NCBI GenBank assembly: GCA_902612125.1
Contig: CACMBV010000001.1
Location: 1 to 64,000 of the forward strand
From: an uncultured Verrucomicrobiota bacterium
GTDB lineage: Bacteria > Verrucomicrobiota > Verrucomicrobiia > Opitutales > Seribacteraceae
DNA length: 64,000 nucleotides
Reading direction: 5' to 3'
The translations under genes were made by a program, and so were the position numbers. Below, piece by piece: positions 15,984 to 38,413 of this stretch (positions within the stretch are counted from its first letter, which is position 1; every line of letters begins with the position of its first letter). The notes under the pieces were generated by a model. It was given only the letters and a program-made list of their open reading frames with translations, was not told where the DNA came from and did no database searches.

Positions 15984-16775
15984 ATGAAAATATTTCCAAA
16001 ACCTCCGTTTATGAAACAAATTTTACATCTAAAAGCACCAGTCACTTTACTCCTTTTTACAGGATCGTTATTCTGCGAAATTCCAAAAGCACCTTCCATC
16101 TTTAAAGAATGGATTGCTACTGAAAGACTGATTACAAAGGAATCTTCGTCGTGGGAAATCGAAAAAAGTTCACTCAACGATCTGGTCGAATTACTCGAAG
16201 AGGAGAAGCAAACGATCGATGAAAAGCTTCAATCTGTTGAAAAAGAAAATTCTGCAGGTGAAGAGGAGAGAATAAAATTAGCTGATCAGAATGAGGATTT
16301 GAAATCAGCAATACTGCCAGTTTCTGAAACTCTTGAAAAATTGGAGAGTCAACTTTTGAGACTTGCTCCTCGCTTCCCTCCCCCTCTTCAGGACGACTTG
16401 CAGAGCTTCCTAAACCGAATTCCTAACAAAAATAAACAAGAAACAATAACCGCTTCGGTTAGTCAGCGACTGCAGGCTGTAGTTGGAGCACTTGCAAAAA
16501 TTGACAAATTTAACAGCTCAATCGCTCTTGATGAAAAATTATTAAAGATCGAAAGCGGTGAGGTAAAAGTCAGCGTTTTGTATTTTGGTTTAGGGATAGC
16601 TTATTTCTCAGACGAAACCGGCACCAAGGCAGGTTATTTACTTCCATCCGAAAATGGTTGGGATGAATTCGATCAGCCAACGGCTGGTCCTGCAATTCTG
16701 GAAACAATTTCATTTTATAACCGAACTGCTCAAAAACAGGCAACATTTGTGGACCTTCCCTTTAAAACAAACTGA
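15984..16775 (+). CDS. DUF3450-type periplasmic protein of a TonB2 system
   Basis: 263 residues: signal-like N-terminus (hydrophobic LLLFTGSLFCEI after the second Met), a long heptad-rich coiled coil (about residues 50-115, rich in E, K and L), and a C-terminal domain with GIAYFSDETGTKAGYLLPS. Family, position and architecture match DUF3450 proteins, which occur at the head of Vibrio-type TonB2 operons. It is expected to act in the periplasm with the TtpC-like protein next to it. The ATG at 15984 follows GGAGATGAAAA and is preferred; an ATG at 16008 is the alternative and would give a more compact signal peptide. Its C-terminal motif recurs in the N-terminal part of the next protein, implying common ancestry. 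Confidence 0.78.
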   Translation: MKIFPKPPFMKQILHLKAPVTLLLFTGSLFCEIPKAPSIFKEWIATERLITKESSSWEIEKSSLNDLVELLEEEKQTIDEKLQSVEKENSAGEEERIKLADQNEDLKSAILPVSETLEKLESQLLRLAPRFPPPLQDDLQSFLNRIPNKNKQETITASVSQRLQAVVGALAKIDKFNSSIALDEKLLKIESGEVKVSVLYFGLGIAYFSDETGTKAGYLLPSENGWDEFDQPTAGPAILETISFYNRTAQKQATFVDLPFKTN

Positions 16776-16795
16776 TCATTCAAATTATTCTTTCA

Positions 16796-18253
16796 ATGAA
16801 ACCGTTCTTTTTATCACTACTGGGACTTTCTCTGGGTATCACCCTACAAGCAAATGACTATGAAAACGCAGAGAAAGAACTAGTTGAAAAAAATAAATCT
16901 GCATTGTCCAAACTTGCGGAGACAAGAACCAAAATCCAAAACGAGAAAATACCCTTGGCTACAAAGCTGAGTACACTTGAAAGATCGGTCGAAGAAAAGA
17001 GAAGGTCCCTTGACCGCCTTCAAAGACTTCGTGACAACAAATCCGTGAGCTTAACCGCACTTAAGAAGGAGGTGGATGGGAGAAAAACAGAAGCACAATT
17101 TCTTTCCACTTTGGGGAGTGATTATTTGGCAAATTTCGAGGCTCGTCTACATGTAGCAGAAATTGATCGAAATCAGGCTGAATTATCACAAATCAAATCT
17201 GTCCTGGACAGTGATTCATCTGAAAAAGAGAAAATGACTGCCCGTATGAATCTACTCACCATGTCAATTAAGCGCATTGAGGAACTTCTGGGTGGGACAC
17301 AATTTGAGGGACAGGCACTCGACGGTAGCGGCAAGGTAAGGGAAGGTACATTTGTACTCTCCGGCCCCCTTGCTTACTTCAACGAAAAAACCGGATCACT
17401 AGCTGGACTCACTGAATCAGGACGAGACCTAAAACCAAGAATTTTTGAACTTCAGGATCCTCAGGCATCTACCCTTCGGTCTTACTTTAAGTCAGAAGAT
17501 GGTAGCGTTGCCACACTTCCTGTGGATGCCACCCTTGGTGATGCGGTCAAAGTCGCCGCGGCCGAGGATACAACAGTGGAACATATTCAAAAAGGGGGCA
17601 CCTGGGCATATCCCATTGTAATAGCCGCAATTATTTCTCTTTTAATTGCACTGATTAAATACCTCCAACTTAGTGGAATTAGCTTTCCGCGATCTCAGGG
17701 GGTTACTGAAATTATTCGTAAAATGGAAGATGGGGACAAAGACGGAGCTTTGAAGCTAGCCAAAAACTTAAAAGGCCCCTTCAAAGAAATGTTTACTGCC
17801 GGCATCTCAAAGTGTACCGAGGGGAAGAAAATGGTAGATGAAGCTATGTATGAAGAGTTGCTTGCCACCCAGCCAAAATTAGAAAGCTATCTTCCTGTTA
17901 TACAAGTTACAGCTGCAACAGCACCCTTAATGGGGCTACTTGGAACAGTTACAGGAATGATCAAAACCTTCAAGCAAATCACTCTTTTTGGAACGGGCGA
18001 TGCGAAAAGCCTTTCTGAAGGTATCTCGGAAGCACTTATTACTACTGAACTGGGACTTGTCGCCGCTATTCCTTCGCTCATTCTCTACGCAGTTCTGTCA
18101 CGAAAATCGAAAGCCATACTTGCTGAAATGGAACGTTTATCATCCCTCTTTTTAAATGCATTCCCCAAGAAAAAAGATCTTTTCCTAAACACACCGCCAA
18201 AGGAAAATGATTTAGATGATTCTACTTCAGATGCCATAGCTGAACCTGCTTAA
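16796..18253 (+). CDS. TtpC-like MotA/TolQ/ExbB proton channel protein with periplasmic coiled coil
   Basis: 485 residues. Signal peptide (1-19, FFLSLLGLSLGITLQA), a coiled coil to about residue 170, a globular piece with GPLAYFNEKTGSLAGL, then an ExbB domain with three membrane helices (about 264-287, 365-390, 405-425) carrying the TAATAPLMGLLGTVTGMI and LGLVAAIPSLI signatures. This is the architecture of TtpC, the fourth component of Vibrio TonB2 complexes, needed for energising TonB-dependent uptake. It lies in a tight run DUF3450-ttpC-exbB-exbD-tonB-TPR. The channel half should sit in the inner membrane with the coil in the periplasm. Confidence 0.88.
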   Translation: MKPFFLSLLGLSLGITLQANDYENAEKELVEKNKSALSKLAETRTKIQNEKIPLATKLSTLERSVEEKRRSLDRLQRLRDNKSVSLTALKKEVDGRKTEAQFLSTLGSDYLANFEARLHVAEIDRNQAELSQIKSVLDSDSSEKEKMTARMNLLTMSIKRIEELLGGTQFEGQALDGSGKVREGTFVLSGPLAYFNEKTGSLAGLTESGRDLKPRIFELQDPQASTLRSYFKSEDGSVATLPVDATLGDAVKVAAAEDTTVEHIQKGGTWAYPIVIAAIISLLIALIKYLQLSGISFPRSQGVTEIIRKMEDGDKDGALKLAKNLKGPFKEMFTAGISKCTEGKKMVDEAMYEELLATQPKLESYLPVIQVTAATAPLMGLLGTVTGMIKTFKQITLFGTGDAKSLSEGISEALITTELGLVAAIPSLILYAVLSRKSKAILAEMERLSSLFLNAFPKKKDLFLNTPPKENDLDDSTSDAIAEPA

Positions 18254-18280
18254 GAATTTTCAAGTTTCTTAGCTTAATCA

Positions 18281-18913
18281 ATGGATATCATCTTCACATG
18301 GTTTACTGACGAAGTTTGGGGACTTTGGGTACAAGGTGGTTCTCTCATGTTAATGCTCTTGGCCATCGCACTTATCCTATATTACTCGACCCTCGAAACA
18401 TACATGTTTTTAAAGTCCAGAACTTCATTCAAGAACACGAACAAAAACACCCTGATTCAGTGGATTAGTAATCCCGATAAAGCCGATCACGAAACCCAAA
18501 AAATGCTCCGCTATGTATCGGATGGCAAGGAGACTCTTGGCGAGGCAAGGAGACGCTTCGATGAAATCCGGGCATGTTTCTTACCATTAATCGACCGTAG
18601 GATTACTTTTCTCAGTTTACTGGTAAGCACTGCACCCCTTGCCGGTCTTTTGGGTACGGTTATGGGGATGCTTACCACATTTAAAGGGCTTTCTACCAGT
18701 TCCGGGGGAAAAACGATTGATTTCGTGGCAGGAGGTATCTCTGAAGCACTAATCACGACTCAAACTGGTCTGATCATAGCCATTCCTGCTTATGTCATGA
18801 TCAACCGAATTGTTTCGCAAAAGGATCAGTTGGAAATTTTTTTCACCACCCTCGAAAGCCTGACTATGCAAAACTACAAAGGAATTTTGGAAACTGATGA
18901 GGAGGAAGATTAA
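18281..18913 (+). CDS. exbB: ExbB-type proton channel protein (TonB2 system)
   Basis: 210 residues with three predicted membrane helices: about 18-40 (GGSLMLMLLAIALILYYS), 110-135 (VSTAPLAGLLGTVMGMLTTF) and 150-170 (QTGLIIAIPAYVMI). The last two form the MotA/TolQ/ExbB signature. With ExbD it forms the inner-membrane motor that uses proton motive force to drive TonB. It follows the TtpC-like gene by 27 bases and precedes exbD by 6 bases, so it is the second ExbB paralogue of a TonB2 arrangement. Confidence 0.93.
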   Translation: MDIIFTWFTDEVWGLWVQGGSLMLMLLAIALILYYSTLETYMFLKSRTSFKNTNKNTLIQWISNPDKADHETQKMLRYVSDGKETLGEARRRFDEIRACFLPLIDRRITFLSLLVSTAPLAGLLGTVMGMLTTFKGLSTSSGGKTIDFVAGGISEALITTQTGLIIAIPAYVMINRIVSQKDQLEIFFTTLESLTMQNYKGILETDEEED

Positions 18914-18919: not shown

Positions 18920-19336
18920 ATGAGTAGAGCACGAAGAAGTTTTTCAACCGCAGATAAAGCGGAGGACATAAACATTTCACCTCTGATCGACATGGTTTTT
19001 ATCCTGTTGATCTTCTTTATCGTAACGACTGTTTTCGTGGAAGAGACCGGAGTCGATGTCGACAAACCTCAGGCTGCTGCAGCCAGTATGCTTGAGAAAA
19101 ACAGTATACTTATCGCTATCACCGGGAAAGGTCGGGTTGTTTACGGGGGGAGGGAAGTTGGAGTCAGTGGAGTCCGTGCGGTAGTACGCAGGTTGAATGA
19201 AGGAAAAGGCGAAGATGATGTTCTTCCTGTTATCGTACAGGCTGACAAAACGGTTGTAACCGACCTACTGGTTCGGGTCATCGACGAAGCCAAACTAGGT
19301 GGTGCTCAAACTGTGAGCATTGCCACCGAATCCTAA
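18920..19336 (+). CDS. exbD: ExbD-type biopolymer transport protein
   Basis: 138 residues, one membrane helix at about 20-41 (PLIDMVFILLIFFIVTTVF). Asp24 in NISPLIDMVF corresponds to the essential proton-carrying Asp25 of E. coli ExbD. The periplasmic domain follows (VIVQADKTVVTDLLVRVIDEA). It completes the ExbB/ExbD motor with the two upstream genes and has the normal family length. Confidence 0.94.
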   Translation: MSRARRSFSTADKAEDINISPLIDMVFILLIFFIVTTVFVEETGVDVDKPQAAAASMLEKNSILIAITGKGRVVYGGREVGVSGVRAVVRRLNEGKGEDDVLPVIVQADKTVVTDLLVRVIDEAKLGGAQTVSIATES

Positions 19337-19346: not shown

Positions 19347-20003
19347 GTGCCTGGAGAAACCTACAAGCCACCAAAATTTGGAGCCAACCCTGTCCTGCTT
19401 GGTCTCGGTGCGCTTGGAATCGCATTTGGCATAGGCATCCTCTTGCCCCTCACTCAATTACTCAATCCAAGTGACGGCAAGAAGCAGGTTCGATCCGTGG
19501 AAGTGGCGTTACCGCCGCCTCCGCCGCCTCCCATCTCCGAACCACCACCGCCACCCGACACACCTGAGGAGCCACCTCCCCCACCGGATCAATCGATGAA
19601 TATTGATCTCTCGCAACTTGATATGAGTCTCAATGCAGGAGTCGGGAATGTGATGGCTGGAGCTTTTGCGTTCAAAGGATTCTCTGCCCGCAAGGATGCA
19701 ATGTCGGAAATGAAAATTTTTAATTTGGCAGAACTGGACCGAAAACCGCGCCTTCTTCGCAAACCTTCAATCAAATACCCAGCCACTCTTAAACGACAAA
19801 AAGTGGAAGGCGATGTTAAGCTGCTTGTCCTTATTAACGAAAGAGGAAGTGTAAAAGTTCTCAAAGTTCTTTCCTCAAGTCATCCCGAATTTACAGAAGC
19901 CGCAACCAAAGCTGTTGAGCGTTCACGCTATGAAGCACCCAAAAAAGGCGGACAAGCAGTACGCACTAAATTTCTGCTCCCCGTACCCTTTCGCATGAGA
20001 TAA
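19347..20003 (+). CDS. tonB: TonB energy transducer
   Basis: 218 residues: N-terminal membrane helix (about 17-37, LLGLGALGIAFGIGILLPL), a proline-rich spacer (about 50-80, runs of P with E and D), and a C-terminal TonB domain (about 125-218) with KRQKVEGDVKLLVLINERG, the standard beta-strand region, ending FLLPVPFRMR. It spans the periplasm and contacts the TonB box of receptors; the receptor at 21444 is the obvious partner. The start is GTG at 19347, chosen because no ATG precedes the membrane helix; its ribosome site is poor, so translation is probably coupled to exbD 10 bases upstream. Confidence 0.92.
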   Translation: MPGETYKPPKFGANPVLLGLGALGIAFGIGILLPLTQLLNPSDGKKQVRSVEVALPPPPPPPISEPPPPPDTPEEPPPPPDQSMNIDLSQLDMSLNAGVGNVMAGAFAFKGFSARKDAMSEMKIFNLAELDRKPRLLRKPSIKYPATLKRQKVEGDVKLLVLINERGSVKVLKVLSSSHPEFTEAATKAVERSRYEAPKKGGQAVRTKFLLPVPFRMR

Positions 20004-20010: not shown

Positions 20011-21426
20011 ATGAAAAACACCATAATTCCTGTCTTTATTTTTCTAATTTCCGGCACCGCCTTTCTTACAGGCAAAGTCGCTCCCCTGACCGAAAAGATT
20101 TGGTCAAACCCTGAATTTATTAAAGACTACCTCGGATCCTTCGCCATAAGCTCCGAAGTCGAGCCTAAGATTGGTCGGGCCGAACAGGTCCTCTTTGAAG
20201 ACATTACGGAAATGATCGATGACAACCGTACCGACGAAGTCATCGAAGAATTAAAAGGGGAATTCGATGAGATAGACTCCAGTCCCGCCATTGATTTCAC
20301 CCTCGCCAACTTTCTGGTGCAGGAGGGCAACATGACCGAATCGATTAAATACTATGTCTCAGCCATCCGAAAATTTCCTGACTTTTTGAGAGCCCGCAAA
20401 AACCTCGGATTTATCTATGTGGAGGATGGCAACTTTTCAGAAGCACTTCCTCATCTAGTCAAATGCGTAGAATTGGGGGGGGTAGATGGAGACCTTTACG
20501 GATTGATCGGTTATTGCTACCTGAATACTGAACTCTACGCATCCGCTTTGGACGCATACAGAATGGCCCTTATATTTGAACCCAACAGTAAAGATTGGAG
20601 ACTCGGCAAGGCTCAATGTCTTATTTCTTTGGAAAAGTACGACGACGCGATCGCCATGCTTACGGAACTCATCCAAATGGATAAAAGCAAAAAGGATTTC
20701 TGGCTATTCCAGGCAAACGCTTACCTAGCCAGCGAGAAAAGTGAGGATGCAGCCGCCAATCTCTTCCTGGTTGATTTAATGGAACAAGCCGATGCCAACT
20801 CCAAGCTTCTCCTCGGTGACATATATGTAACCCTTGAACTCCCACACCTCGCCGTTCCTCAATACCTCGATGTTCTCGATTCAGATGAAAAGTTGCCCGT
20901 TTCCAAAGCAGTAAGAATCGTTGAAGTTTTGGCCCGCTCCACCAATTGGAAAGAAGCCTCTGAGGTTTCTCCTAAGATTAAGGAAAAATATGCCGATCAG
21001 TTTAGTCCCGAAGAGGCCAATAAGTTTGACTCTCTACGAGCCGAAATTCTCTTCGCACTGGATCGTAAGGAAGAAGCAGTCAAAGCCTTGGAGGAACTTG
21101 TCAAACGAGATCCGCTTAATGGACGTGTACTCCTTTTATTAGCCGGTCATTATTCGACCAACTTTCGTAAGAGTATTGATAAGGATCAAACCAAAGCTGA
21201 CGAGTTTGCGGCGAAAGCCATTTTTCTCTATGAAAGGGCGGCAAATTTGGATGACACAGCAGTGAAATCGTCTGCTCTTATGAGACATGGACAAATCCTC
21301 GTAAGACAGAAAAAATATACAAATGCGGTAAAATTTCTCGAAAGATCAAACGCCCTGAAGCCAAGAGATTCTCTTGAAAAATACCTCGAGCAGGTACGCC
21401 GGCTTGCCGATCTTACTCAATCCTGA
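20011..21426 (+). CDS. tetratricopeptide repeat protein of the TonB2 operon
   Basis: 471 residues with an N-terminal signal peptide (IPVFIFLISGTAFLTGKVA) and repeated TPR helices, e.g. ARKNLGFIYVEDGNFSEALP, DLYGLIGYCYLNTELYASAL and RLGKAQCLISLEKYDDAIAM. Periplasmic TPR proteins close many Vibrio-type TonB2 operons; they probably scaffold the envelope complex. It begins 8 bases after tonB and is followed 17 bases later by the TonB-dependent receptor. Function beyond protein-protein interaction cannot be deduced. Confidence 0.87.
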   Translation: MKNTIIPVFIFLISGTAFLTGKVAPLTEKIWSNPEFIKDYLGSFAISSEVEPKIGRAEQVLFEDITEMIDDNRTDEVIEELKGEFDEIDSSPAIDFTLANFLVQEGNMTESIKYYVSAIRKFPDFLRARKNLGFIYVEDGNFSEALPHLVKCVELGGVDGDLYGLIGYCYLNTELYASALDAYRMALIFEPNSKDWRLGKAQCLISLEKYDDAIAMLTELIQMDKSKKDFWLFQANAYLASEKSEDAAANLFLVDLMEQADANSKLLLGDIYVTLELPHLAVPQYLDVLDSDEKLPVSKAVRIVEVLARSTNWKEASEVSPKIKEKYADQFSPEEANKFDSLRAEILFALDRKEEAVKALEELVKRDPLNGRVLLLLAGHYSTNFRKSIDKDQTKADEFAAKAIFLYERAANLDDTAVKSSALMRHGQILVRQKKYTNAVKFLERSNALKPRDSLEKYLEQVRRLADLTQS

Positions 21427-21443: not shown

Positions 21444-24400
21444 ATGCTTTTTAGTGGATACAAATTTCCATTTCTAATCTCCTTTGCTTTTGCGTGTACA
21501 CAATCACTGCTGTTCGCACAGGATTCAAATACTACCTTAGATACGAACACCTCTGTCAATCAAACTACCATCAAACCAGGACGTATTTTAGGGAGAGTTT
21601 TCGATGCAGATTCCGGCGAAGCACTTAAAGATGTTACCGTTGTATTAGAGGATCAGAATAGGGAGACAAAGACCGACCTCGAAGGACGCTATCGACTCCC
21701 GGATATTGCTCCCGGGGATTATTCACTCCTTTTTTTTAAAGAAAACTATCAGCGTACCCGAGTAAAAGCAGAGGGGGTGGTTTCCGGTCGTTCCAAGCTT
21801 GTCGACCTTCCCCTAAATCCCGACTACTCGAACCTTGAAACCCTGGATGCATTTGAGATAACTGCGGAAGATCTTGCAGGTAGCGATATACAGCTACTTG
21901 CTCTCAGGCAGGAAAGCATGGTGGTCATGGATGCGATGGGATCATTTGACATGAGCCGGTTGGGTGCCGGTAATGTTGCGGATGCCCTGACAAAAATGGT
22001 GGGTACCAGTGTACAGGATGGAAAATATGTGGTCGTTCGTGGTTTAGCTGACCGCTATTCCAACGCCACCTTCAATGGCGTACCTATTCCCAGTTCCGAT
22101 GTTTATCGAAACACCCCACAACTCGATCTTTTTCCGTCCATTGCAGTTGATAGTATTTCGATAAAAAAAAGTATGAGTCCCGAGCTTGGAGCAGCATTTT
22201 CTGGTGGAAGCGTAGATGTGGTCACCAAAGCATATCCTGAAGAATTCACTTTTAATGTTTCTGCAGGTACTAAATTCAATGAGTTACTTTTCGATCAAGG
22301 ACAGTACCTCACTTATGTGGATGGTAAAAAAGATAAATATGGCTTTGGTCTCGATTCAAGGAAGATTCCTGAAGGATATGAAAGCACTGCATTTTGGTAT
22401 CTCAGAAGAGGCAAGCCAACATCATATGAAAAAGAAAAATTTATGGAATCGATCGATTCCAACTTTTTGCCAATTTACAAGGATCCAGAACTTGGAAGAT
22501 CATACGGTATAGAATTTGGTAACTTATTTTCTACTAATGAGGGTGATATTGGAGTCCTTTTCAGCTTGGACTATTCCCTCGAACATACAACGAAACCCCA
22601 AATCTTTAGGCAGGATTTTAATCCCGAAAACTTAAGAGAAATTGAAGGTGAATCGAGCTTTGTCATCGAAGAGGGTAAACAATCGGCTGCTTTAGGGTCC
22701 TATTTCCAAACCTCAATTATTCCCAACGAGGATAACGAACTTGGCATAATTTCTCTTTGGAGTCACACCGGTGATAAGATTGCGATGTATAGCCAAAACC
22801 TTTGGCACAGGGGACTTAATGGTGAAAGTACAAATTATGACACAACAGATAAAACCGGTGTGGAAGGCTTCGAGCTAGCTTGGGAAGAGCGTGACATGTT
22901 GATTAACCAACTTTACGGAAAACACTTTTTTCCTGAACTTAATGAATTGGAACTCTCTTGGAGGGCTGCAAAAACTGATGTAAGTCTGAACGAACCTGAA
23001 AGAAAACGCATACAACGAGGCTGGAAACTTGCAAGCACCCCTACCGTCTACTGGGGACCGGCAAAGGGCAGATCCGGTTCTCAATTCATAGACAGAATTG
23101 CTCCAAGCCAGGTCTGGCGGTCCATGGAGGATAAATCTTCTTTTTATCGATTGGATCTAGACTTACCACAGGAAGGTAATCATAATTTTGATATTTCCTT
23201 TAAATTTGGAATTTCTGGAGATGAATTAGAGCGAACATTTGAACAGACTGAATTAGAATTGTTACCTAGTGAATCCAACCTTAACTGGTGGGACATCCGA
23301 GATTCAAATTTCTATGCAGGTGGAGATCCAAACGGTTTTACATTCCCTGGTCCGCAAAACAATCCAACTACAGGCTTGGATATTCAAAATTATTTTAATC
23401 ATCCGAATTACCGAAATGTACTTTTTTATAATGCCCAACTATTTGGTGGAGACTATCGGGGAGTCATGAATAATGACTCATTTTATTTCGGTGCTTTAGT
23501 AGAAAGCGAGGATGGAAAAAGTCTACTCCTTGGACTGCGTGCCGAGAATTACAAGGCGATCGTTTCGCCTGAAGCAGATATTGAAACAATAACCCCAAGT
23601 GAATTTGTTAGTGATTTACTAATTTCTAATAGAATAAAAAATATAAATGCGGCTAAAGCCGAAATCGAGGACAACAGTTATTACCCTTCTGTTTCGTTCA
23701 ACAAAAAATGGGAGAATGGATTAAAATTCTCAACCAGTGCAGCCAAATCTACTGCCAGACCAAACTTCAGAGAATTAGCCTATGTTCCAACTCAAGATCC
23801 GATCAAGAACTCTGTATTTATTGGAAATCCTACTTTAGAACCATCAGAGATAGAAAATTATGATTTAAGATTAGACTGGTCTCTTTCCGAAACAGATCTC
23901 ATTTCATGGAGTTTGTTTTACAAAGATATCCTAAAACCAATCCAAGCAACAAAGGGACATCAAAATCTTATCATATTCAGAGATGGAGTTCCACTGAAAT
24001 TCGAGCAAGGATCGGACACATTTATAAATTCAGAGTCTGCAGAGGTCTACGGCATAGAAATGGAATGGAAGAAAGGATTGGCAGACATCAGTGAGTATTT
24101 AAACGGTATTCGCATTGGAGGTAACCTTACTTGGTCTCAGTCGAGCGTTGTTCTTTCGGAACTAGAAAAAGGACTTTTTCCTAGTAATCCTTCTCAGGAG
24201 AGCTACAAATATCTTAGAGTGGCAGACAGACAGGAACGAGCACTGGAAGGACAGTCAGAATGGATTTATACCTTCGATTTATCTTACTCGAATGAAGATT
24301 GGGGCACATTGAGCACATTAGTTTACAGTTACTATGACAGCAGGTTGCATGCTGCCGCGTTCGAATACCCCGATGATTTATGGGAAGATGGATTTTCTAA

Positions 24401-24575
24401 TCTTGATTTCATTCATTCCCATAAATTTGGTAAAGAGAAGGATTGGCAAATTAAATTTGCAGCCAAGAACCTTACAGCCGAGGATAGGATCGTGAGGATT
24501 AAGGATACAGCGGCTATCGAAGAAAAGTATACAACTTCTCGCATTTACTCAGTTTCAATCGAAAAGAGCTTCTAG
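21444..24575 (+). CDS. TonB-dependent outer-membrane receptor with carboxypeptidase-like N-terminal domain
   Basis: 1043 residues. Signal peptide (about 1-26, ending LLFAQ), then a carboxypeptidase-regulatory-like domain (about 45-125: ILGRVFDADSGEALKDVTVV, TDLEGRYRLPDIAPGDYSLL), a plug (about 140-265: VADALTKMVGTSVQDGKYVV, VVRGLADRYSNATFNGVPIP, ELGAAFSGGSVDVVTKAYP), and a beta-barrel ending in the aromatic TSRIYSVSIEKSF. It is cotranscribed with its own TonB2 energiser, so it is a dedicated receptor rather than one of many. Substrate unknown: the downstream Pst/Pho and lipid-remodelling genes suggest a phosphorus-containing ligand, by context only. Confidence 0.9.
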   Translation: MLFSGYKFPFLISFAFACTQSLLFAQDSNTTLDTNTSVNQTTIKPGRILGRVFDADSGEALKDVTVVLEDQNRETKTDLEGRYRLPDIAPGDYSLLFFKENYQRTRVKAEGVVSGRSKLVDLPLNPDYSNLETLDAFEITAEDLAGSDIQLLALRQESMVVMDAMGSFDMSRLGAGNVADALTKMVGTSVQDGKYVVVRGLADRYSNATFNGVPIPSSDVYRNTPQLDLFPSIAVDSISIKKSMSPELGAAFSGGSVDVVTKAYPEEFTFNVSAGTKFNELLFDQGQYLTYVDGKKDKYGFGLDSRKIPEGYESTAFWYLRRGKPTSYEKEKFMESIDSNFLPIYKDPELGRSYGIEFGNLFSTNEGDIGVLFSLDYSLEHTTKPQIFRQDFNPENLREIEGESSFVIEEGKQSAALGSYFQTSIIPNEDNELGIISLWSHTGDKIAMYSQNLWHRGLNGESTNYDTTDKTGVEGFELAWEERDMLINQLYGKHFFPELNELELSWRAAKTDVSLNEPERKRIQRGWKLASTPTVYWGPAKGRSGSQFIDRIAPSQVWRSMEDKSSFYRLDLDLPQEGNHNFDISFKFGISGDELERTFEQTELELLPSESNLNWWDIRDSNFYAGGDPNGFTFPGPQNNPTTGLDIQNYFNHPNYRNVLFYNAQLFGGDYRGVMNNDSFYFGALVESEDGKSLLLGLRAENYKAIVSPEADIETITPSEFVSDLLISNRIKNINAAKAEIEDNSYYPSVSFNKKWENGLKFSTSAAKSTARPNFRELAYVPTQDPIKNSVFIGNPTLEPSEIENYDLRLDWSLSETDLISWSLFYKDILKPIQATKGHQNLIIFRDGVPLKFEQGSDTFINSESAEVYGIEMEWKKGLADISEYLNGIRIGGNLTWSQSSVVLSELEKGLFPSNPSQESYKYLRVADRQERALEGQSEWIYTFDLSYSNEDWGTLSTLVYSYYDSRLHAAAFEYPDDLWEDGFSNLDFIHSHKFGKEKDWQIKFAAKNLTAEDRIVRIKDTAAIEEKYTTSRIYSVSIEKSF

Positions 24576-29997: not shown

Positions 29998-30035
29998 GTC
30001 ACAGAACTTTTTTATCTCCGTTACAGTATTGTTAC
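29998..30035 (+). promoter_or_regulatory. candidate Pho box before phoB
   Basis: GTCAC at 29998, GTTAC at 30020 and GTTAC at 30031 stand at 22- and 11-base intervals, matching the 11-base phasing of PhoB half-sites. It lies 41 bases before the phoB start codon and would allow autoregulation. Confidence 0.5.
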
Positions 30036-30075
30036 GATTTCGTGTTATAAAAATTAGGAATTTTTAATAACTACT

Positions 30076-30789
30076 ATGATCCAAGACTCTACATTCGAAG
30101 CCAGCTCTTACTCAGTGCTAATTATAGATGACGAAGAAGCTATCTGTGAAATGATTGAATTTAAGTTAAGTAAAGAGGGTTACCGAGTCTCATGGATTAC
30201 CAATCCTCTTGAAGCTATCGGTAAAGCTAGAGATTTTGAACCAGACATAATTATTCTTGATGTAATGATGCCTGAACTAGATGGTTTCCGGTTATGTAGC
30301 ATGCTTCGGGTCGATGGTGTTCTGAAACATGTCCCTATTCTATTTCTAACAGCAAAAAATGAAGTTGAAGACCGAATAAAAGGATTTAACCGAGGCGGAG
30401 ATGATTACCTTACCAAACCATTTGATAACCGCGAATTAGTTGCCCGCATAAAAGCAATTCTTAGCCGTAGTCTTCGCAAGCAAGAAGCATTACAAGGAAA
30501 ACTCAATGGTGGAGGCATCAGCTTGGATCCTGAGTCCCACGAAGTGACAATCGGAGGGTCAGTTATTGATCTCACAAATACTGAGTTTCGCTTGCTACAC
30601 CTTATGATGGAAAGAATTGGACGAGTACAAACTAGAGAAAATCTTCTTGTTAATGTTTGGAATTACGACTCTGAAATAGAAACTCGAACCGTTGATAATC
30701 ATATTGGTCGACTTCGTGCAAAATTAGGCGATAAGGGAGAATTTGTTAAAACCGTTAGAGGAGTCGGCTACAAGTTTCTTGTGGATTGA
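30076..30789 (+). CDS. phoB: PhoB-type response regulator
   Basis: 237 residues: receiver domain with phospho-acceptor Asp62 (IIILDVMMPELDG), acidic pair DDEE at 18-21 and Lys in the LTKPF motif; OmpR/PhoB winged helix at the C-terminus ending VRGVGYKFLVD, with TRTVDNHIGRLRAKLG as recognition helix. It lies 27 bases upstream of the sensor gene and inside the pst cluster, which makes the PhoB assignment secure. It would activate pst, plcP-agt and other genes when phosphate is scarce. Confidence 0.94.
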   Translation: MIQDSTFEASSYSVLIIDDEEAICEMIEFKLSKEGYRVSWITNPLEAIGKARDFEPDIIILDVMMPELDGFRLCSMLRVDGVLKHVPILFLTAKNEVEDRIKGFNRGGDDYLTKPFDNRELVARIKAILSRSLRKQEALQGKLNGGGISLDPESHEVTIGGSVIDLTNTEFRLLHLMMERIGRVQTRENLLVNVWNYDSEIETRTVDNHIGRLRAKLGDKGEFVKTVRGVGYKFLVD

Positions 30790-30816: not shown

Positions 30817-32097
30817 ATGTGGCCATTCCTCGCCGTCGCTTTTTTTCTAATTGCCTTTTTTCTTTGGGCACAAAAGCGTGTTACTCAAAATATTATCGAA
30901 GAGATACTTATCGCTTTGGAAAAGGGTCATAATTTGATCCTAGAAAAATCGCTTTTTCTTTCTTCATCCTTTTCCCTAAGTCGCTTTCAAAAAATTCTCG
31001 ATGAAAACAGGAGCAAAATAACTTCTTTAGAAACCGAAAGGTCACAAAGAATAAACGAATTCAACGAAACCTTGGGTGGTATTTTAGATGGAGCCATCCT
31101 TCTAGATTTACGTCATACTGTCACCTTTGCTAATGATTCAGCCGACTTGTTTTTTGCGGAAGGACAATCACTGGTTGGTCGGAGACTCGAATCGGTATTG
31201 GACTCTGCCCATGTGCTTGAAATGATAGATCGTGTCAAAAACCACGAAAAATCGGAGAAATCAGAATTTTCTCTTCATCGTAAAGGCAGTCATGATGACT
31301 TCGAAATTACGGCAACTGTCATAACTGACTTACAGCAAAACAATGAGAAACACATCCTCTTATTATTTCACGATGTAACTCAAATTAAACGAACTGAACA
31401 TATGAGGAGAGACTTTGTGGCAAATGCTTCCCATGAACTTCGTACTCCGATAACCATAATAAGAGGGTTCTGTGAAAACCTGATGGAGGAAGAGGAAATT
31501 AACCCAGAACAAAAGACACTCTTTCTCCAAAAAATCCATCAAAATACACTCCGCCTACAGGCGTTAATTGATGATTTGCTTAACCTATCTGAACTAGAAG
31601 GAAGCGAAAATGCAATTTCTCCGACTAATAATAAATTGTCTGAAATTATCCTTGGAGTTGAAATGTATCTCACAGACAAGACTTTTGTTGATACGGATAA
31701 ACTGACTTTTGACCTTTGTACAGAAGATGAAGCATTTCCTTTTGACGCAGTTAAAGTAGCTGCTGCAGTTAGCAATCTTATTGAAAATGCTTTCAAGTAT
31801 GCCGGGGATTTCACTCAGATAAAAGTTAAAACCTCAATTTATGAAGATCAGGGAAGTGACTGGATAACTTGTTCAGTCCAAGACGATGGCGTTGGAATTC
31901 CTGCAAAAGATTTAACTCGCATTTTCGAAAGGTTTTATGTGGTGGACAAGGGTAGATCACGTGAAAAAGGAGGTACTGGACTTGGCTTGAGTATAGTAAA
32001 AAATATTGCTGAGTCTCACGGTGGTCATGTCTCTGCTACAAGTACCCTGGGGTTGGGATCCACTTTTTCATTCACATTGCCAATAAACAAACCTTAG
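30817..32097 (+). CDS. phoR: PhoR-type sensor histidine kinase
   Basis: 426 residues. One N-terminal membrane helix (2-17), a HAMP-less linker, a PAS domain (about 80-190: GGILDGAILLDLRHTVTFAN), the phospho-acceptor His206 in ANASHELRTPITIIRG, and an ATP-binding domain with N-box SNLIENAFKYAG, VQDDGVGIP and GGTGLGLSIVKN. The lack of a large periplasmic domain is typical of PhoR, which senses the state of the Pst/PhoU complex rather than phosphate itself. The ATG at 30817 follows AAAGGA. It pairs with phoB directly upstream. Confidence 0.93.
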   Translation: MWPFLAVAFFLIAFFLWAQKRVTQNIIEEILIALEKGHNLILEKSLFLSSSFSLSRFQKILDENRSKITSLETERSQRINEFNETLGGILDGAILLDLRHTVTFANDSADLFFAEGQSLVGRRLESVLDSAHVLEMIDRVKNHEKSEKSEFSLHRKGSHDDFEITATVITDLQQNNEKHILLLFHDVTQIKRTEHMRRDFVANASHELRTPITIIRGFCENLMEEEEINPEQKTLFLQKIHQNTLRLQALIDDLLNLSELEGSENAISPTNNKLSEIILGVEMYLTDKTFVDTDKLTFDLCTEDEAFPFDAVKVAAAVSNLIENAFKYAGDFTQIKVKTSIYEDQGSDWITCSVQDDGVGIPAKDLTRIFERFYVVDKGRSREKGGTGLGLSIVKNIAESHGGHVSATSTLGLGSTFSFTLPINKP

Positions 32098-32270: not shown

Positions 32271-33932
32271 ATGTTTTCATCCAAGAAAAGTTTTAGCAGC
32301 AAAAGAAAAGAAACTTGGATAAAGACCATTTTTGGAAGCAGTGCAGTAACATCGATTATTATTCTGAGTCTGATTATCGCGTTCCTTTTTAAAGAAGGGA
32401 TAGGTTTTTTTGGACAAAATAAAAGTGAGCTCGATCTTTTTCGAAAATCAGGAATGGAGTTCTCTTCCCTAATAACCGGGCAACATGATTCCCAGACTCT
32501 GATCTACAGATATCTAGAAAATATTCTAGCAAATGAAAGCAAATATGCGGAAAGCATGGAACCGGACTCTAGTGAGATAATATCCGCACAAGACAGGAAT
32601 AAAAAACTTTTAGAATTTTCGAGGAATTTTCAGGACATCAAAGAAATCCTTCTGGAGTATGAAAAAGATATTGTGGAGATGGCTGCAGAAACTAAACAAT
32701 TTATTCTAATCCAGAATCTAATTAAGGAGCTCAGACTAATCGCTAGAAAACATAAGCTAACTGAAGAAGATTTTTCGATTTCAATGGATGAGATTGATAA
32801 ACGAAAAAAGTTTAGTTCAAGGGAAATTGAAAAGTGGTCAAATTATTTTTTCCGACAAGGGTTTGAGGACGAAGCTAAAAGTTTAAGTGCTCTTTTGATT
32901 AATTACGACACATCATTGGCCCCATTTTATTATTACGACCGAACTACTGAAATTGTAGAATCCTACTCAATTACTTATCAACCTTTGATCAGGAAACAGA
33001 ACCAAGAGTTTGAAGAGATTTTTAAAAATTTTAATCCAAAATTTTCTTTAAAAAAATCAGTAGAGGATTTTAGAAAAGTCAAAATTGCATTTGTCGAGTA
33101 TCTTAACACAACTGAGTTATTCGATAAAAAAATCAAAGAATGGAACCCAGAAAAACCGTATCCTTTAGCAGATGCTTTCAGTAGTTTTTTTCTAGGAAGA
33201 GATTGGATTACCAACAGTGCAAGACAGGATTGGTACGGTGTTTTACCACTTCTTTCAGGTTCTTTGCTCATTACACTGATAGCGCTTTTACTTGCGGTTC
33301 CATTTGGATTAGGTTCAGCAATTTATGTGAGTCAGGTAGCAAACACTAAAGAAAAATCACTCATTAAACCAGCTATTGAATTAATTGCATCTATCCCTTC
33401 AATTCTAATTGGATTTTTTGGTATTTCAATGCTCGGAGGATGGATCACAGTTTTTGCTGATGAAAGATTAAATTCACTCACAGCTGGATGCCTCCTTGCC
33501 TTAATGGCGGTTCCAACAATTTTCTCCTTGGCGGAAGATGCCCTTAACAATGTTTCATTGCGCTTGCGAGAAGCCTCTTTTGCATTGGGTGCAACCAAGC
33601 TACAAACATGTCTCCGAGTTGTTATTCCCTCTGCACTCTCCGGGATGATTTCGGCAGTTCTTCTTGGTTTTGGGCGAGTTATAGGAGAGACAATGGTGGT
33701 TTTACTTTGTGCAGGAAACCGAATTGCAATTCCAGATTTCACAGAAGGATTTTCAGTCTTAGCAGAACCTGTTCATACCATGACTGGAATTATTGCCCAG
33801 GAAATGGGGGAAGTTGAATATGAAAGCATTCATTACCGGGCATTATTTATGGTAGGTATTGTGCTTTTCCTTATTACTTTAGGGATAAACTTTTTTGCAC
33901 AAAACTTAACTCACAAAATCCAAAATAAATAA
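32271..33932 (+). CDS. pstC: phosphate ABC transporter permease PstC with large periplasmic insertion
   Basis: 553 residues, compared with about 320 in E. coli. After the first helix (about 20-45) an extra, mainly helical domain of about 250 residues follows (roughly 50-305, e.g. [20 protein letters not shown]), then the usual permease core: [20 protein letters not shown], the coupling motif [20 protein letters not shown] and [19 protein letters not shown]. The inserted part is predicted to lie on the periplasmic side and could interact with PstS. Immediately followed by pstA, which bears an insertion at the same place. Confidence 0.9.
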
Positions 33933-33937: not shown

Positions 33938-35605
33938 GTGAGTAAACGTAATTACAAATTGAATAATTCTTCTTCCTCATCAAAAAATGTGATGATGTTA
34001 GAGAAAACAATTTTCTGTATTACCAGAGTTCTAACTTATTTTATCCTTTTTTGTGCGTGTTTCATTTTTTGGGACATTATTTCCAAGGGCTCTCGAAAAG
34101 TATTCCATAAAGAAGGTTTTATTAACTGGGAATTCTTTACCGAATCACCACAAACACTTCATGTTATTGAACATGATGGTGAAACATTGGAACTTAGTTC
34201 TGAAAATTATTTTAGCTTTAAAAGAAGTCTATCAGACGCTGCTTGGAAACTTTTAATAACAAAAAGTCAATTTAAGGAAGTTAAAGAAAGGCTGGTAAAT
34301 AATTTAAATGATTTAACAGAAACACCTTCTCCTTCTTCCCAAAAAAATTTGCTTCACGATTATATTGAAAATGAAAAAAAGGAAGCAAAAGAAAAGTTCA
34401 ACTTCTGGCTAGATATGTTAGAAAATCCATCAAATCATGCTTCGGATTTTGAAGTTTCCGAGGAGGAAATGCCCTATTTGGTAGGACGCTTCATTATTGC
34501 ATTTTTAAATCAGGCAAAATCAAAATATAAGCTTCTCGATAACGAACTATCTTATTTTAGTGCACTCCATTATCCAAAAATTGACAATCTTACACCGACT
34601 AATATCGAAGATATCAACTTAGCTTATTTCAATTTTCTTAATGAAAATTTACCAAAATTATGGAATGTTTTTGAAGCCAAAAATAAAAACCTAAGAGAAA
34701 GAGTTGTAGAATTTGATGAAAACCCATCGACCTCTTCCTTCGTATTCCTTGAAAATAACTTCAAGTCTATTGATGAAGTCCAATCACTCCATGAATTTAA
34801 TTCTATCGATCTTCTGAAGAAAATAAGCGATGATCTTAGATGGATATCTTCAAGTTTCAGGATTTCAGTTGATTCCAAAGACTATGCATACTCGGGCGGA
34901 GGAATTTTTCCTGCCATTGCAGGCACTTTGTTATTAGTCGGAGGTGCTATGCTAATCGCACTAATCATCGGTGTATGCTGTGCTGTTTTTCTTTCGGAAT
35001 ATGGCAAAACCGGGAAGTTCCTTTCTCTAGTTCGGCTTTCAATCCTTAACCTCGCTGGAGTTCCATCAATCATTTTTGGTCTCTTTGGAATGGGATTATT
35101 TGTTATTTTCTTAGACTGGAATGTCTCTCTTATCGCAGGTTGGTTCACGCTGGCTTTTATGATTCTACCAGTAATTATCACTGCGAGTGAAGAATCTTTA
35201 TGTGCGATCCCTCAAGATTTTCGTGAGAGTTCAATAGCACTAGGGGCCTCTAAATGGACTATGATAAAGACGAGTGTTTTGCCATATGCTTTGCCAGGAA
35301 TTCTAACCTCTTCAATTCTAGGCGTAGCTCGTGTAGCAGGAGAAACAGCACCAATTATGTTTACAGCTGCTTTTGCAATGAGATCTGAATTACCGTGGGA
35401 AGGTCTTGAAAAGTGGACAGATTTCTTTTTCCAAGGAGTAATGGCACTACCTTATCACATTTATGTTATTTCCAAGATTCCACAAAATGAATATACGATA
35501 GATATGCAATACGGCACAGCCTTTGTTTTTTTAATGTTGGTTTTCATGCTCGCCAGTCTGTCTTTTGTACTTCGTGCTCGCCTTCGCAGAAAGTTTAACT
35601 GGTGA
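33938..35605 (+). CDS. pstA: phosphate ABC transporter permease PstA with large periplasmic insertion
   Basis: 555 residues, again nearly double the 296 of E. coli PstA. A helix at about 25-45 is followed by an extra domain of roughly 260 residues (about 50-315), then [39 protein letters not shown] and [14 protein letters not shown] of the permease core. DUF3333-containing PstA proteins of alphaproteobacteria also have an N-terminal extension, but I cannot tell whether this one is homologous. The start is GTG 33938, five bases after pstC. The GTGA at the 3' end overlaps the start of pstB. Confidence 0.9.
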
Positions 35606-36408
35606 CTTCTTTTACGAAACCAACTGTGAAAAAAAAAAAACCATCCAAATCACTCAATGCCATAGAAGTTAATGATTTGAGTTTTGCATACGGTAAAAAT
35701 GAAGTTCTAAACTCAATTTCACTTGAAATTTTACGCAACAAGGTAACCTCGTTCATAGGTCCATCAGGATGCGGAAAGAGCACATTATTGAGGTGCTTCA
35801 ACCGAATGAATGAATTACTAGAAAATGCCAGAATAATTAAGGGTTCAGTAGTGGTTGAAGGACATGATATATACGAAAAAACTGTAGATCCAATAGAATT
35901 ACGAAAGCGTATTGGTATGGTCTTTCAGAATTCTAATCCTTTCCCAAAAACAATTTATCAAAATGTAGCCTATGGACTTAAGATTCAGGGCGTGAAGAGT
36001 AAGCGTAAAATTGATGAGATAGTCGAGAACTCCTTGATTCAAGCTGCTTTATGGGATGAAGTTAAAGACCGGTTAAATGCAAATGCCTATGAATTGTCTG
36101 GTGGACAACAGCAACGTCTTTGTATTGCCCGTACCCTTGCTGTAGAACCAGAGATAATCCTTATGGACGAACCCTGTTCTTCATTAGATCCAGTTGCCAC
36201 CGCTCGGGTTGAAGAACTTATTTTCAACCTTAAGCAAAACTACACAATAGTGATTGTTACTCATAATATGCAACAGGCTGGAAGAATTTCAGACTTAACC
36301 GCCTTCTTTTATTTAGGAAAACTTATTGAATTCGATGAAACCAAAAAAATATTCATTAACCCTAAAATGAAGCAAACCGAAGATTACATTTGCGGCAAGT
36401 TCGGATAA
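35602..36408 (+). CDS. pstB: phosphate ABC transporter ATP-binding protein PstB
   Basis: 268 residues with Walker [10 protein letters not shown] (53-61), the PstB-typical [20 protein letters not shown], signature [18 protein letters not shown] and Walker [13 protein letters not shown]. It energises phosphate import through PstCA. The GTG start at 35602 overlaps the TGA of pstA by four bases (GTGA). The Lys-rich N-terminus is about 18 residues longer than usual; starting at a later codon is not excluded. Confidence 0.96.
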
Positions 36409-36434: not shown

Positions 36435-37112
36435 ATGGCTACACATTACGAGCAAATACTTGAAAATGTAAGATCAAAACTCCTTCTAATGGGACAGCTA
36501 TCAATCGACTCACTCCGACTTTCCTTACAGGCACTTATCGATAAAGATGCAGAACTTGCCGGAAAGGTAAGGTCAAAAGACAAGGAGATCGATATGCTTG
36601 AAAATGAATTAGTAAACGATGTTAATGTTTGCTTATCGACTCACGCTCCTGTGGCAGGAGATCTTAGACTTCTCGTTACCACAATGAAAATAAGCCATGA
36701 GATTGAAAGAGTTGGAGATGAGGCAAAGTCCATTGCAAGAAGGTCAAAGAAGATACTTGTAAATGATTTTCATGTGATACCGAAGATGGCAGAAGCTGCT
36801 CAAGATATGCTTAGGGAGGCACTATCAGTATTCGTTGAGTACGATGAGGAAAAGGCGAAATCAATATGGACCAAAGACTTGGAGATTGACGCTATGAACC
36901 TTGAGAACAACCAATTCTGTCAAGCCTTGGTTATAAAAGATACTCATTTGGTTTCATCTATCTTTGAACTCCTGTTTATTTCGAAATCGCTTGAGAGAAT
37001 TGCTGACCATGCAGTAAATATTTCAAAAGAAGCTGTGTTTTTAGCAACAAGTCGTGACATCCGTCACGCCCCAGAATTTAAGAAGTCTTTCCTAAAGAAA
37101 AACCTCGATTAA
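36435..37112 (+). CDS. phoU: phosphate signalling complex protein PhoU
   Basis: 225 residues, the usual length, forming two three-helix bundles. Motifs DLRLLVTTMKISHEIERVGD (first half) and LLFISKSLERIADHAVNIS (second half) are the PhoU metal-binding E/DXXXD elements. PhoU links the Pst transporter to PhoR and shuts off the regulon in high phosphate. It lies 26 bases after pstB and closes the pst operon; an AT-rich hairpin (37165-37186) follows. Confidence 0.94.
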   Translation: MATHYEQILENVRSKLLLMGQLSIDSLRLSLQALIDKDAELAGKVRSKDKEIDMLENELVNDVNVCLSTHAPVAGDLRLLVTTMKISHEIERVGDEAKSIARRSKKILVNDFHVIPKMAEAAQDMLREALSVFVEYDEEKAKSIWTKDLEIDAMNLENNQFCQALVIKDTHLVSSIFELLFISKSLERIADHAVNISKEAVFLATSRDIRHAPEFKKSFLKKNLD

Positions 37113-37164
37113 ATTACCCTTAATTTCTGAAATTTTGGTTGCTCCTAAAAATTTCATCTTCATC

Positions 37165-37186
37165 ATAAAAAGACCTTTCTTTTTAT
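37165..37186 (+). terminator. AT-rich hairpin after phoU
   Basis: ATAAAAAG (37165-37172) pairs with CTTTTTAT (37179-37186). It lies 53 bases after the phoU stop. Stability is low, so termination is uncertain. Confidence 0.3.
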
Positions 37187-37261
37187 CTTAAATTTTGATT
37201 TTTGATTCTCAAACGCCCTCAAAGAAACCTCAATGAGATTTGATTTTTATATTGTTATCGC

Positions 37262-38413
37262 ATGAGTGACCTCACCTTTTGGGGTGTTTTAGTCAACTTT
37301 TTATACATATTAGGTGGGTTAGGTATTTTTCTCTATGGTATGCGTGTGATGAGCGATGCCATACAAAAAATTGCTGGTGCCGGGATGCGACGGATCATGG
37401 CAAGTATGACAAAAAACCGATTTTATGGCCTCTTGACAGGTCTTTTCGTTACCTGCCTTGTTCAGTCATCCTCTGCAACGACTGTCATGGTTGTTAGTTT
37501 TGTAAATGCACAACTCCTAACTCTCACCGAATCCATAGGAATTATTATGGGTGCTAATTTAGGCACCACTTTAACTGGCTGGATAATCGCATCTGTTGGC
37601 AAATTTAGCCTATCGAAAATTGCACTCCCAATTATTGGTATTGGTTTCCCATTAATTTTTTCAAAGAAAACAAAATTTAAACATACAGGTGAGTTTCTCG
37701 TTGGTTTTGGGCTTCTCTTTTTTGGTCTCAGTGAACTGAAAAATGCAGTGCCAGATGTTAAAAGTCTTCTACAAAGCTCTGACCATCATGATCTACAAAT
37801 GGTTCGTGAAATTCAATCAACGATTGAACAGTTAAATAGTTACGGATTCGGTTCCATTATCATTTTTTTGATAATAGGAATTATTATGACTATTATCGTT
37901 CAATCATCTTCTGCTGCAATGGGAATAACCATAATACTTGCGGTGAATGGATGGATTAATTTCGAAATCGCTGCTGCTATAGTACTAGGGGAAAATATTG
38001 GAACTACAATTACTGCTTGGCTTGCATCCATAGGTACTACGCTATCCGCCAGAAGAGCTGCTCGAGCCCACTTGATTTTTAATGTTGCTGGTACTTGTTG
38101 GATGCTAATTCTATTTTATCCTTTCGTCTCAATGGTGGATTCAATTATGGAAGGATCTATATATTTGGAAAATGTTACATCTACTGAGCTAGAATCTCAT
38201 TTTGATAAGTATGATGATCAATCTGATCCTAGTCCCGAAGAGATTGCCACCGCTAAAAAGTCAATAGTTGACACAAATATCCCTCTGCATCTTTCTTTAT
38301 TTCATACTATGTTCAACCTTTGCAATATTGCACTATTGATTGGATTTTCTCCTCGCATTGCAAAACTCGTTGAACGCCTTGTTAAAGATACTGGAAAATC
38401 AGAGTCTATTTAA
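37262..38413 (+). CDS. Na+/phosphate cotransporter (PNaS family, NptA-like)
   Basis: 383 residues with two inverted repeats, each carrying the Q-S-S-S-A motif (VQSSSATTVMVVSF and VQSSSAAMGITIIL), the signature of type II sodium-phosphate cotransporters. An IIMGANLGTT and a LGENIGTTITAWL loop accompany them. There is no C-terminal PhoU-like domain, which many bacterial members have; phoU is instead the separate upstream gene. Expected to bring in phosphate with Na+ when it is plentiful. Located 149 bases after phoU, so it may have its own promoter. Confidence 0.92.
   Translation: MSDLTFWGVLVNFLYILGGLGIFLYGMRVMSDAIQKIAGAGMRRIMASMTKNRFYGLLTGLFVTCLVQSSSATTVMVVSFVNAQLLTLTESIGIIMGANLGTTLTGWIIASVGKFSLSKIALPIIGIGFPLIFSKKTKFKHTGEFLVGFGLLFFGLSELKNAVPDVKSLLQSSDHHDLQMVREIQSTIEQLNSYGFGSIIIFLIIGIIMTIIVQSSSAAMGITIILAVNGWINFEIAAAIVLGENIGTTITAWLASIGTTLSARRAARAHLIFNVAGTCWMLILFYPFVSMVDSIMEGSIYLENVTSTELESHFDKYDDQSDPSPEEIATAKKSIVDTNIPLHLSLFHTMFNLCNIALLIGFSPRIAKLVERLVKDTGKSESI

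Follow-up and report, generated by a model that had tools for sequence, protein, structure and literature searches.

TonB energy is commonly linked to iron, vitamin B12 and sugars. The closest described systems include receptor/exoprotein pairs that respond to phosphate. In Caulobacter, phosphate-starved cells produce and release the protein ElpS, which reaches the cell surface without the type II secretion system (T2SS), its gene standing in the order cc0170-cc0171-gsp with the receptor gene cc0171 adjoining (PMC2996285), and TonB receptors are governed by PhoB (PMC11208175). In Flavobacterium johnsoniae, Fjoh_0545/0546 (in the phoBR operon) and Fjoh_3856/3857 are strongly induced by phosphate depletion, and the proteins FI, FII and FIII are interrelated and polygalacturonase-like, with 31-36% identity to the Caulobacter protein over about half the length (PMC8115612). 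The TonB2 operon of vibrios has the order ttpB-ttpC-exbB-exbD-tonB-ttpD, in which ttpB encodes a DUF3450 protein and ttpD a TPR protein (PMC6957404); TonB3 systems include a receptor gene and are described as still without an assigned function (PMC6957404, PMC10734418). In Myxococcus xanthus the TonB-dependent transporter Oar secretes PopC (PMC6434023). Here we describe a row of eight genes (the module) that joins a TonB2-type energiser to a TonB-dependent receptor and a secreted beta-helix protein, and that lies beside a pst/pho operon in a 64,000-nucleotide stretch of DNA (the window) from an uncultured marine bacterium of the Verrucomicrobiota (Opitutales, Seribacteraceae; GenBank assembly GCA_902612125.1, contig CACMBV010000001.1, positions 1 to 64,000). 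The contig is part of a 2.41-Mb genome of 84 contigs with an estimated completeness of 64%.

The module is probably a PhoB-controlled outer-membrane machine for phosphorus acquisition that now stands beside the pst/pho operon, and our best reading of its parts is a TtpB-TtpC-ExbB-ExbD-TonB-TtpD energiser with a receptor pair of the ElpS type under putative PhoB control. An earlier note on this DNA, made from the sequence alone, had linked the TonB half to phosphorus uptake by its adjacency to pst and pho genes. The role is supported, on other grounds: Pho-box-like promoters stay with the module even when it is unlinked to pho genes, the module is again found near pho genes in further families as well as in Alteromonas, and similar receptor/beta-helix pairs have been published as phosphate-starvation loci. 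Adjacency itself is rejected as evidence, since the module is a newcomer at the pho locus. The parts are known; their combination is new in Verrucomicrobiota as far as literature searches reach, and among the open-access papers listed by them none describes a TtpB-TtpC-ExbB-ExbD-TonB-TtpD system under Pho control.

Pho-box-like promoters of the module

The module is preceded by three half-sites 11 bp apart (Table 1), and half-sites of the same type and spacing precede phoB, the OprP porins and the glycosyltransferase (GT) genes of the family. Judged by these repeats, the module appears to be switched on by the phosphate-starvation signal that also governs the phosphate-uptake genes. The box is kept in relatives in which the module lies far from pho genes, and beside a remnant of the module on another contig of the window genome (G000:C21). 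When promoters were scored with a matrix built from twelve pho sites of the family, none of them from the module, a score of at least 14.05 was reached by five of the six module promoters, a count that equals about one independent test, the six being mutually homologous. The same score was reached by 15 of 244 other upstream regions, 13 of which belong to unlabelled OprP porins or to intergenic space shared with pho or module genes; after removal of the porin and shared spaces, 2 of 231 unrelated regions reached it. A second, complete DUF3450-TtpC-ExbB-ExbD-TonB-TPR operon of the same genome (L030, 5394-11030, contig G000:C33) has no Pho-box-like site (promoter score 3.1), and its contig also holds a Fur-family gene.

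One more Pho-box-like site lies upstream of the module box and is a relic of the arsR/OprP-porin promoter: in three relatives (G008, G010 and G002) CGTTGCA-AAAA-AGTTACA stands between arsR and the OprP porin. Since this porin box survives (15653-15670), the module sits behind two Pho-box-like sites. The site ahead of the GT gene is weak and decayed, and in G035 and G037 TGGCGCA-AAAC-TAAGT takes its place.

The spacing of the repeats was examined in the leaders of the Verrucomicrobiota survey loci (see below) as two TGTNACA half-sites at a set distance on either strand. At 11 bp, the threshold was reached by 25 of 53 module promoters and by 10 of 174 other regions (Fisher p 3e-11, which overstates independence, the sequences being interrelated). 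The second count leaves out nine regions whose intergenic space also borders module or pho genes; with these it is 13 of 183. By gene type, the repeats precede the beta-helix gene in 12 of 25 cases, the receptor gene in 10 of 16 and the energiser in 3 of 12. Nine other spacings (7 to 16 bp) gave module counts of 1-7 out of 53, with the maximum at 9 bp. Of seven control half-sites, six stayed at 0-5 out of 53, p being 0.02 and 0.003 for two of the six; the remaining one, GTTNCAA (14/53), repeats the motif itself at an offset of one base. The threshold of the test was reached by 4 of 11 recognised pho promoters.

Distribution of the module and its linkage to pho genes

Of 387 Verrucomicrobiota genomes, 58, the window genome counted, encode the beta-helix protein or a homologue (53 of the 310 better ones). 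Sixty loci of about 20 kb each, some cut by contig ends, were examined from all 57 other carrier genomes. A receptor homologue shares the locus with the beta-helix gene in 58 of the 60, both exceptions being near contig ends, and 37 or more have at least two of the five energiser genes (blastp, a lower bound). Of the two signs of a coincidental linkage that the earlier note had named, homologues away from Pho genes and no response to phosphate, the first is seen here, most homologues lying elsewhere, while the published pairs do respond. PstS, PstC, PstA or PhoU is encoded in 7 of the 60 loci (families f3, f2 and f40), and looser pho markers in 11, the four extra loci holding PhoB/PhoR, a PhoB-like gene, NaPi with OprP, or OprP. 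Weak OprP matches (20-23% identity, four loci), which would raise the looser count to 15, were dropped. The strict pst markers occur in none of 18 arbitrary control loci from 18 of the same genomes, a set too small to decide alone; if about 0.9% of loci are expected to be linked, a rough figure, 7/60 has a binomial probability of about 1e-6, with the seven linked loci coming from just three families. In four loci from other families of the order (L069, L073, L085 and L113) the pair sits with pstS and an OprP-like porin of 25-31% identity to that of the window's family.

Outside the phylum, two peptide patterns run against species genomes revealed four Saprospiraceae loci; the receptor gene adjoins the beta-helix gene in three and the fourth ends at a contig edge, while pst genes were found in none of the four and a Na/Pi carrier gene near one. 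Plasmid records contained 21 relatives of the beta-helix protein, ten of which were examined. Plasmid pBGP9 of Alteromonas macleodii has the order phoB-phoR-pstS-2-oxoglutarate oxygenase-beta-helix-receptor-DUF3450-ttpC-exbB-exbD-tonB-TPR. Three Pseudoalteromonas records carry the module without listed pho neighbours (DUF3450 is unlisted in one), two Alphaproteobacteria (Indioceanicola and Sphingomonas) have the order beta-helix-receptor-T2SS with syntenic proteins 30-40% identical to the window beta-helix protein, three Bacteroidota records have the receptor/beta-helix pair without an energiser, and a Marinobacter record lists no intact receptor gene beside the beta-helix gene. When seven plasmid loci (120 upstream regions) were scanned with the E. 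coli Pho-box consensus, the five best regions represented four distinct sites, those of Alteromonas phoB, Alteromonas DUF3450, P. xiamenensis DUF3450 and the Alteromonas beta-helix gene, the last 252 bp upstream within the 3' end of the preceding gene. At the next score level a Pseudoalteromonas beta-helix gene was level with a chemotaxis gene, and the Marinobacter regions stayed at background.

A TtpC tree neither backed nor rejected a common origin, and with it a dedicated Pho TonB lineage: the verrucomicrobial and gammaproteobacterial sequences stand on a very long branch, and other long branches occur. A search for viral relatives of the beta-helix protein gave six pattern matches, none of them confirmed. 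We put forward only tentatively, as a possibility that we do not favour, that the energiser, the CC0171-type receptor and the beta-helix exoprotein form a distinct, phosphorus-dedicated and PhoB-controlled TonB class of Verrucomicrobiota and marine Gammaproteobacteria, one that could explain the substrate-orphan TonB3 systems of vibrios and Teredinibacter, moves as a unit, and can take the place of the OprP porin in front of a pst operon.

Proposed mechanism and direction of transport

Under phosphate scarcity, PhoR-PhoB would act on the direct repeats ahead of ttpB and induce the module. The inner-membrane complex of ExbB, ExbD and TtpC, together with TtpB, TonB and TtpD, would pass proton-motive energy to the receptor (gene at 21444), whose putative partner, the secreted beta-helix protein (24655), may hold or process a phosphorus-bearing surface ligand. 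Phosphate would then be taken in through PstSCAB and the Na/Pi carrier, and the GT and PlcP would spare phospholipid. The pair had been proposed in the earlier note as an uncharacterised importer; it is probably of a known kind (ElpS/CC0171, Fjoh_0545/0546), a kinship drawn through syntenic alphaproteobacterial relatives and published descriptions, and it is precedent that makes import more likely than export.

The beta-helix identity holds in the predicted model (mean pLDDT 81.6), with strand repeats from about residue 29 to 362. Acidic residues are conserved over 35 beta-helix sequences, with D177, E199, D225, E228, D246, D252 and E275 invariant. A fold search with this model gave weak PDB matches, including tailspike and alginate-epimerase folds, three of them with E-values below 0.001 and low TM-scores; further matches, to collagen-binding domains and to pre-peptidase C-terminal domains, probably correspond to the sandwich at the C-terminus. 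By sequence, no solved relatives were found for the beta-helix protein (E up to 1) or the receptor (E up to 0.01), and no SusD family, the mark of a SusD-like partner as in the PusCD phosphate utilisation system, appeared among the Pfam matches of the eight module proteins. The size of the beta-helix protein varies: the window protein has one unit, and contig G034:C6 (L023, 1-7314) encodes five in tandem in one open reading frame of about 2,400 residues that reaches the contig end. In the window genome itself, contig G000:C21 (L029, 830-9778) encodes a secreted-looking protein of 2,568 residues with a Pho-box-like site ahead (score 14.8), followed by a 392-residue protein with two copies of the C-terminal domain of the window beta-helix protein.

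The receptor and its private energiser might instead export the beta-helix protein, which would mobilise phosphorus outside the cell, still under Pho control. The two genes keep together in nearly all loci (58/60), the five tandem units of G034 would be odd as a receptor cap, and both the T2SS-independent surface delivery of ElpS (PMC2996285) and the secretion of PopC by Oar (PMC6434023) are published precedents. The window protein has no cysteine in its first 45 residues, hence no lipobox, and so needs a route across the outer membrane; of 57 homologues, some of whose starts are uncertain, 2 show a lipobox pattern. The receptor model (pLDDT 75.4), however, matches the solved import-type transporters PhuR, FecA and PfeA, although such a match cannot separate the directions, and the same match list contains importers with partner proteins (HasR/HasA, TbpA/TbpB and XusA/XusB). 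We regard export as unlikely.

Derived position of the module at the pho locus

In the family, the pho locus consists of arsC-arsR divergent from (OprP porin)-pstS-(GT-PlcP)-phoB-phoR-pstCAB-phoU, with some variation in order; one family porin that was checked is a Porin_O_P member. The module is absent between the arsR side and the pho genes in all seven relatives that are readable on both sides (G035, G037, G029, G008, G039, G010 and G002; arsR itself is missing in G029), and in G035, the pho locus of which is 96-99% identical in DNA to the window, arsR and the GT gene are just 131 bp apart. Close copies of TtpC (at least 62% identity) occur in eight genomes, the window genome included. In six of these (G034, G016, G014, G037, G035 and G038, the last with a copy interrupted by stops) the module adjoins rfbD-rfbB-rfbA-metK-ahcY-obgE, with glycan genes on the other flank where it is readable; in the other two, the window genome and G036, it lies at the pho locus. 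Contig C65 of G036 aligns to window positions 14100-16507 at 95%, from arsC-arsR through into DUF3450, which makes an assembly chimera at the left junction unlikely; the right junction is known from the window assembly.

The rfb site of the window genome (G000:C21) retains a 79-residue DUF3450 remnant with two stops, nearest to G014 (82%), with G034 and the window gene tied behind it (80% each). The promoter box is still present ahead of it (86% identity over 43 bp), and it is adjoined by an acyltransferase gene; a fragment of such a gene lies in antisense behind the module in the window (Table 1), a scar of the move. Because the module is absent in relatives, the rfb-type site is the usual one, and remnant and scar are present, its position at the pho locus, and thus its adjacency to the pst/pho genes, is a derived state. 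The simplest account of these sequences would be the insertion of a segment from an rfb-type site between arsR and the GT gene; the segment may have moved within the genome or arrived from a relative. At this locus gene adjacency alone would mislead, and the evidence for function is that of the promoters and of other lineages.

The pho half (26949-38764) has a G+C content of 38%, compared with 45% in the remaining window, and the receptor and TtpC of G035 are just 59-68% identical to the window proteins, at the protein level, beside its nearly identical pho half. A recent exchange of the pho locus is possible on these figures.

With such a history, the module could serve surface glycans or carbohydrate uptake and have landed beside pst by chance. 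Its rfbDBA-metK neighbourhood in six of eight close genomes, with glycan genes where readable, the DUF3450 remnant and the acyltransferase scar fit this idea, as does the fact that 53 of the 60 loci, contig-cut ones among them, show no strict pst linkage. It leaves unexplained why Pho-box-like repeats accompany the module even when unlinked to pho genes, why the linkage recurs in further families and in Alteromonas, and why similar pairs respond to phosphate in print (PMC8115612, PMC2996285). We consider chance placement quite improbable.

Points against a phosphorus role

Several OmpR-family regulators use direct repeats with a period of about 11 bp, and the repeats might thus serve another OmpR/PhoB-family regulator, with the module answering a different stress, which is very improbable given the same half-sites ahead of phoB, the OprP porins and the GT-PlcP genes of the same family.

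Further observations weigh against PhoB control or a phosphorus role as such. The module box reads chiefly in the reverse orientation relative to the gene, the module promoter of G035 scores just 8.6, and the beta-helix gene of the window is itself without a good site (score 6.6). In the spacing test, 9-bp repeats were also enriched (7/53 compared with 2/174, p 7e-4), and rank tests on scores were significant at all spacings, so that module and other leaders differ in base composition. The alphaproteobacterial pairs remained at background level in the scan with the E. coli consensus. A genome-wide pattern scan gave no matches and is uninformative, as its pattern misses the phoB box of the window, which starts with C. 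Strict pst linkage is rare, and in six of the closest kin the neighbours of the module are rfb and glycan genes, as described above; among family relatives, all of them incomplete genomes, the receptor was not matched in 10 of the 12 that carry pstC, nor pstC in 2 of the 4 that carry the receptor. In Caulobacter, it is reported that cc0171 is constitutive by reverse transcription PCR and that its deletion leaves ElpS production (PMC2996285).

Phosphorus acquisition under PhoB nevertheless remains the probable function. If this is true, a private phosphate-controlled TonB energiser would be an active step in marine phosphorus scavenging at low phosphate, and a widespread, poorly understood machine may help bacteria gather phosphorus.

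Features of the locus and neighbouring genes

All 18 open reading frames of the region are present on the + strand with the order and content that the earlier note had described, in agreement with Pfam (Table 1); the six-gene order of a dedicated TonB2-type system was matched as well, and the strong terminator after the beta-helix gene was recovered by folding, although a simple terminator scanner did not pick it up. The 634-residue beta-helix protein has no Pfam match in a search of the window proteins. Intergenic gaps are 6-27 bp in the TonB part (17 bp between the TPR and receptor genes) and 79 bp ahead of the beta-helix gene, and 15984-26559 reads as a single transcription unit with a putative shared transcript.

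Table 1. Features of the module, the pho operon and their promoters in the window
Feature	Coordinates	Strand	Evidence
Pho-box-like site CGTTGCG-AAAA-AGTTACA, relic of arsR/OprP-porin promoter	15653..15670	+	score 16.5
Promoter box of the module with half-sites at 11-bp spacing (three), TGCGCCA-N4-TGTAACA-N4-TGCAACG	15903..15931	+	score 16.9
ttpB-like, DUF3450	15984..16775	+	PF11932 9.4e-21
ttpC-like, N-terminal extension and MotA/TolQ/ExbB domain	16796..18253	+	PF01618 6e-31
exbB	18281..18913	+	PF01618
exbD	18920..19336	+	PF02472
tonB	19347..20003	+	PF03544
ttpD-like TPR protein	20011..21426	+	TPR families (Pfam)
TonB-dependent receptor, probably CC0171 / Fjoh_0545 kind	21444..24575	+	CarboxypepD_reg and Plug
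Secreted beta-helix protein, probably ElpS / FI / FII kind, 634 residues, C-terminal beta-sandwich	24655..26559	+	predicted model
Intrinsic terminator closing the module	26572..26612	+	fold -22.8 kcal/mol, z -7.8
Acyl_transf_3 gene fragment	26670..26800	-	84.7% identical to gene beside remnant, G000:C21
Weak, decayed Pho-box-like site ahead of glycosyltransferase	26921..26938	+	score 10.4
Family 4 glycosyltransferase (GT4/GT1), probably lipid glycosyltransferase	26949..28157	+	Pfam
Calcineurin-like phosphoesterase, probably PlcP	28154..29032	+	PF00149 (Metallophos)
pstS	29148..29960	+	PF12849 (PBP_like_2)
phoB Pho box CGTTACA-N4-TGTTACG (predicted)	30019..30036	+	promoter scan
phoB	30076..30789	+	Response_reg and Trans_reg_C
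phoR	30817..32097	+	HisKA/HATPase
pstC	32271..33932	+	BPD_transp_1
pstA	33938..35605	+	BPD_transp_1
pstB	35602..36408	+	ABC_tran
phoU	36435..37112	+	PhoU (Pfam)
Na/Pi cotransporter	37262..38413	+	Na_Pi_cotrans; TIGR00704 above cut-off

The best NCBIfam matches of the glycosyltransferase are glycolipid synthases, all below cut-off. For the phosphoesterase, the calcineurin-like family stands, and the name PlcP proposed earlier is taken from the pst context conserved among relatives (of the 11 informative pst loci in family relatives, 7 include a GT and PlcP-like pair), its NCBIfam matches being below cut-off. The Na/Pi carrier has 383 residues, compared with 611-612 in G037, G029 and G003; its C-terminal part is absent from the window and from G035.

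Upstream, at 12846-15568, an arsenic-type cassette (a chromate-transporter-like gene, a MIP channel, an arsenate reductase-like gene and an ArsR-type regulator) is divergent from the pho operon and largely keeps its position across the family, which fits the entry of arsenate via phosphate carriers. The window also contains four sulfatase genes (9581-11038, 38787-40082 and 48960-51822) and DUF1501 and PSCyt/PSD genes (1833-8286), a gene set frequent in the Planctomycetes-Verrucomicrobia.

Comparison with known systems

As in ElpS (CC0170)/CC0171 of Caulobacter crescentus, the gene of a secreted protein stands in the window by that of a TonB-dependent receptor, and the Indioceanicola and Sphingomonas homologues of the window protein hold the same place before receptor and T2SS; the window differs in having no lipobox, no adjoining T2SS genes and a private six-gene TonB energiser. 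Oar/PopC likewise unites a TonB-dependent transporter with a secreted partner, in this case a protease, and we know of no phosphate link for it. The Fjoh pairs resemble the window in combining a TonB-dependent receptor with an exoprotein, one pair within the phoBR operon; unlike the window protein, their exoproteins are lipoproteins, from Bacteroidetes that reportedly have no PstSABC, and the neighbouring genes are others (PMC8115612). The six-gene order ttpB-ttpC-exbB-exbD-tonB-ttpD is identical to that given for TonB2/TonB3 of vibrios and Teredinibacter (PMC6957404, PMC10734418). TonB3, like the window, has a receptor gene in the operon, placed before the six genes and not after them, whereas TonB2 is presented with a potential Fur site and an iron role in place of the Pho-box-like repeats of the window promoter. 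Alteromonas pBGP9 differs in gene order and has a TtpC distant from that of the window in the tree, but it holds the same eight genes, linked to phoB-phoR-pstS, with Pho-box-like sites ahead of DUF3450 and of the beta-helix gene.

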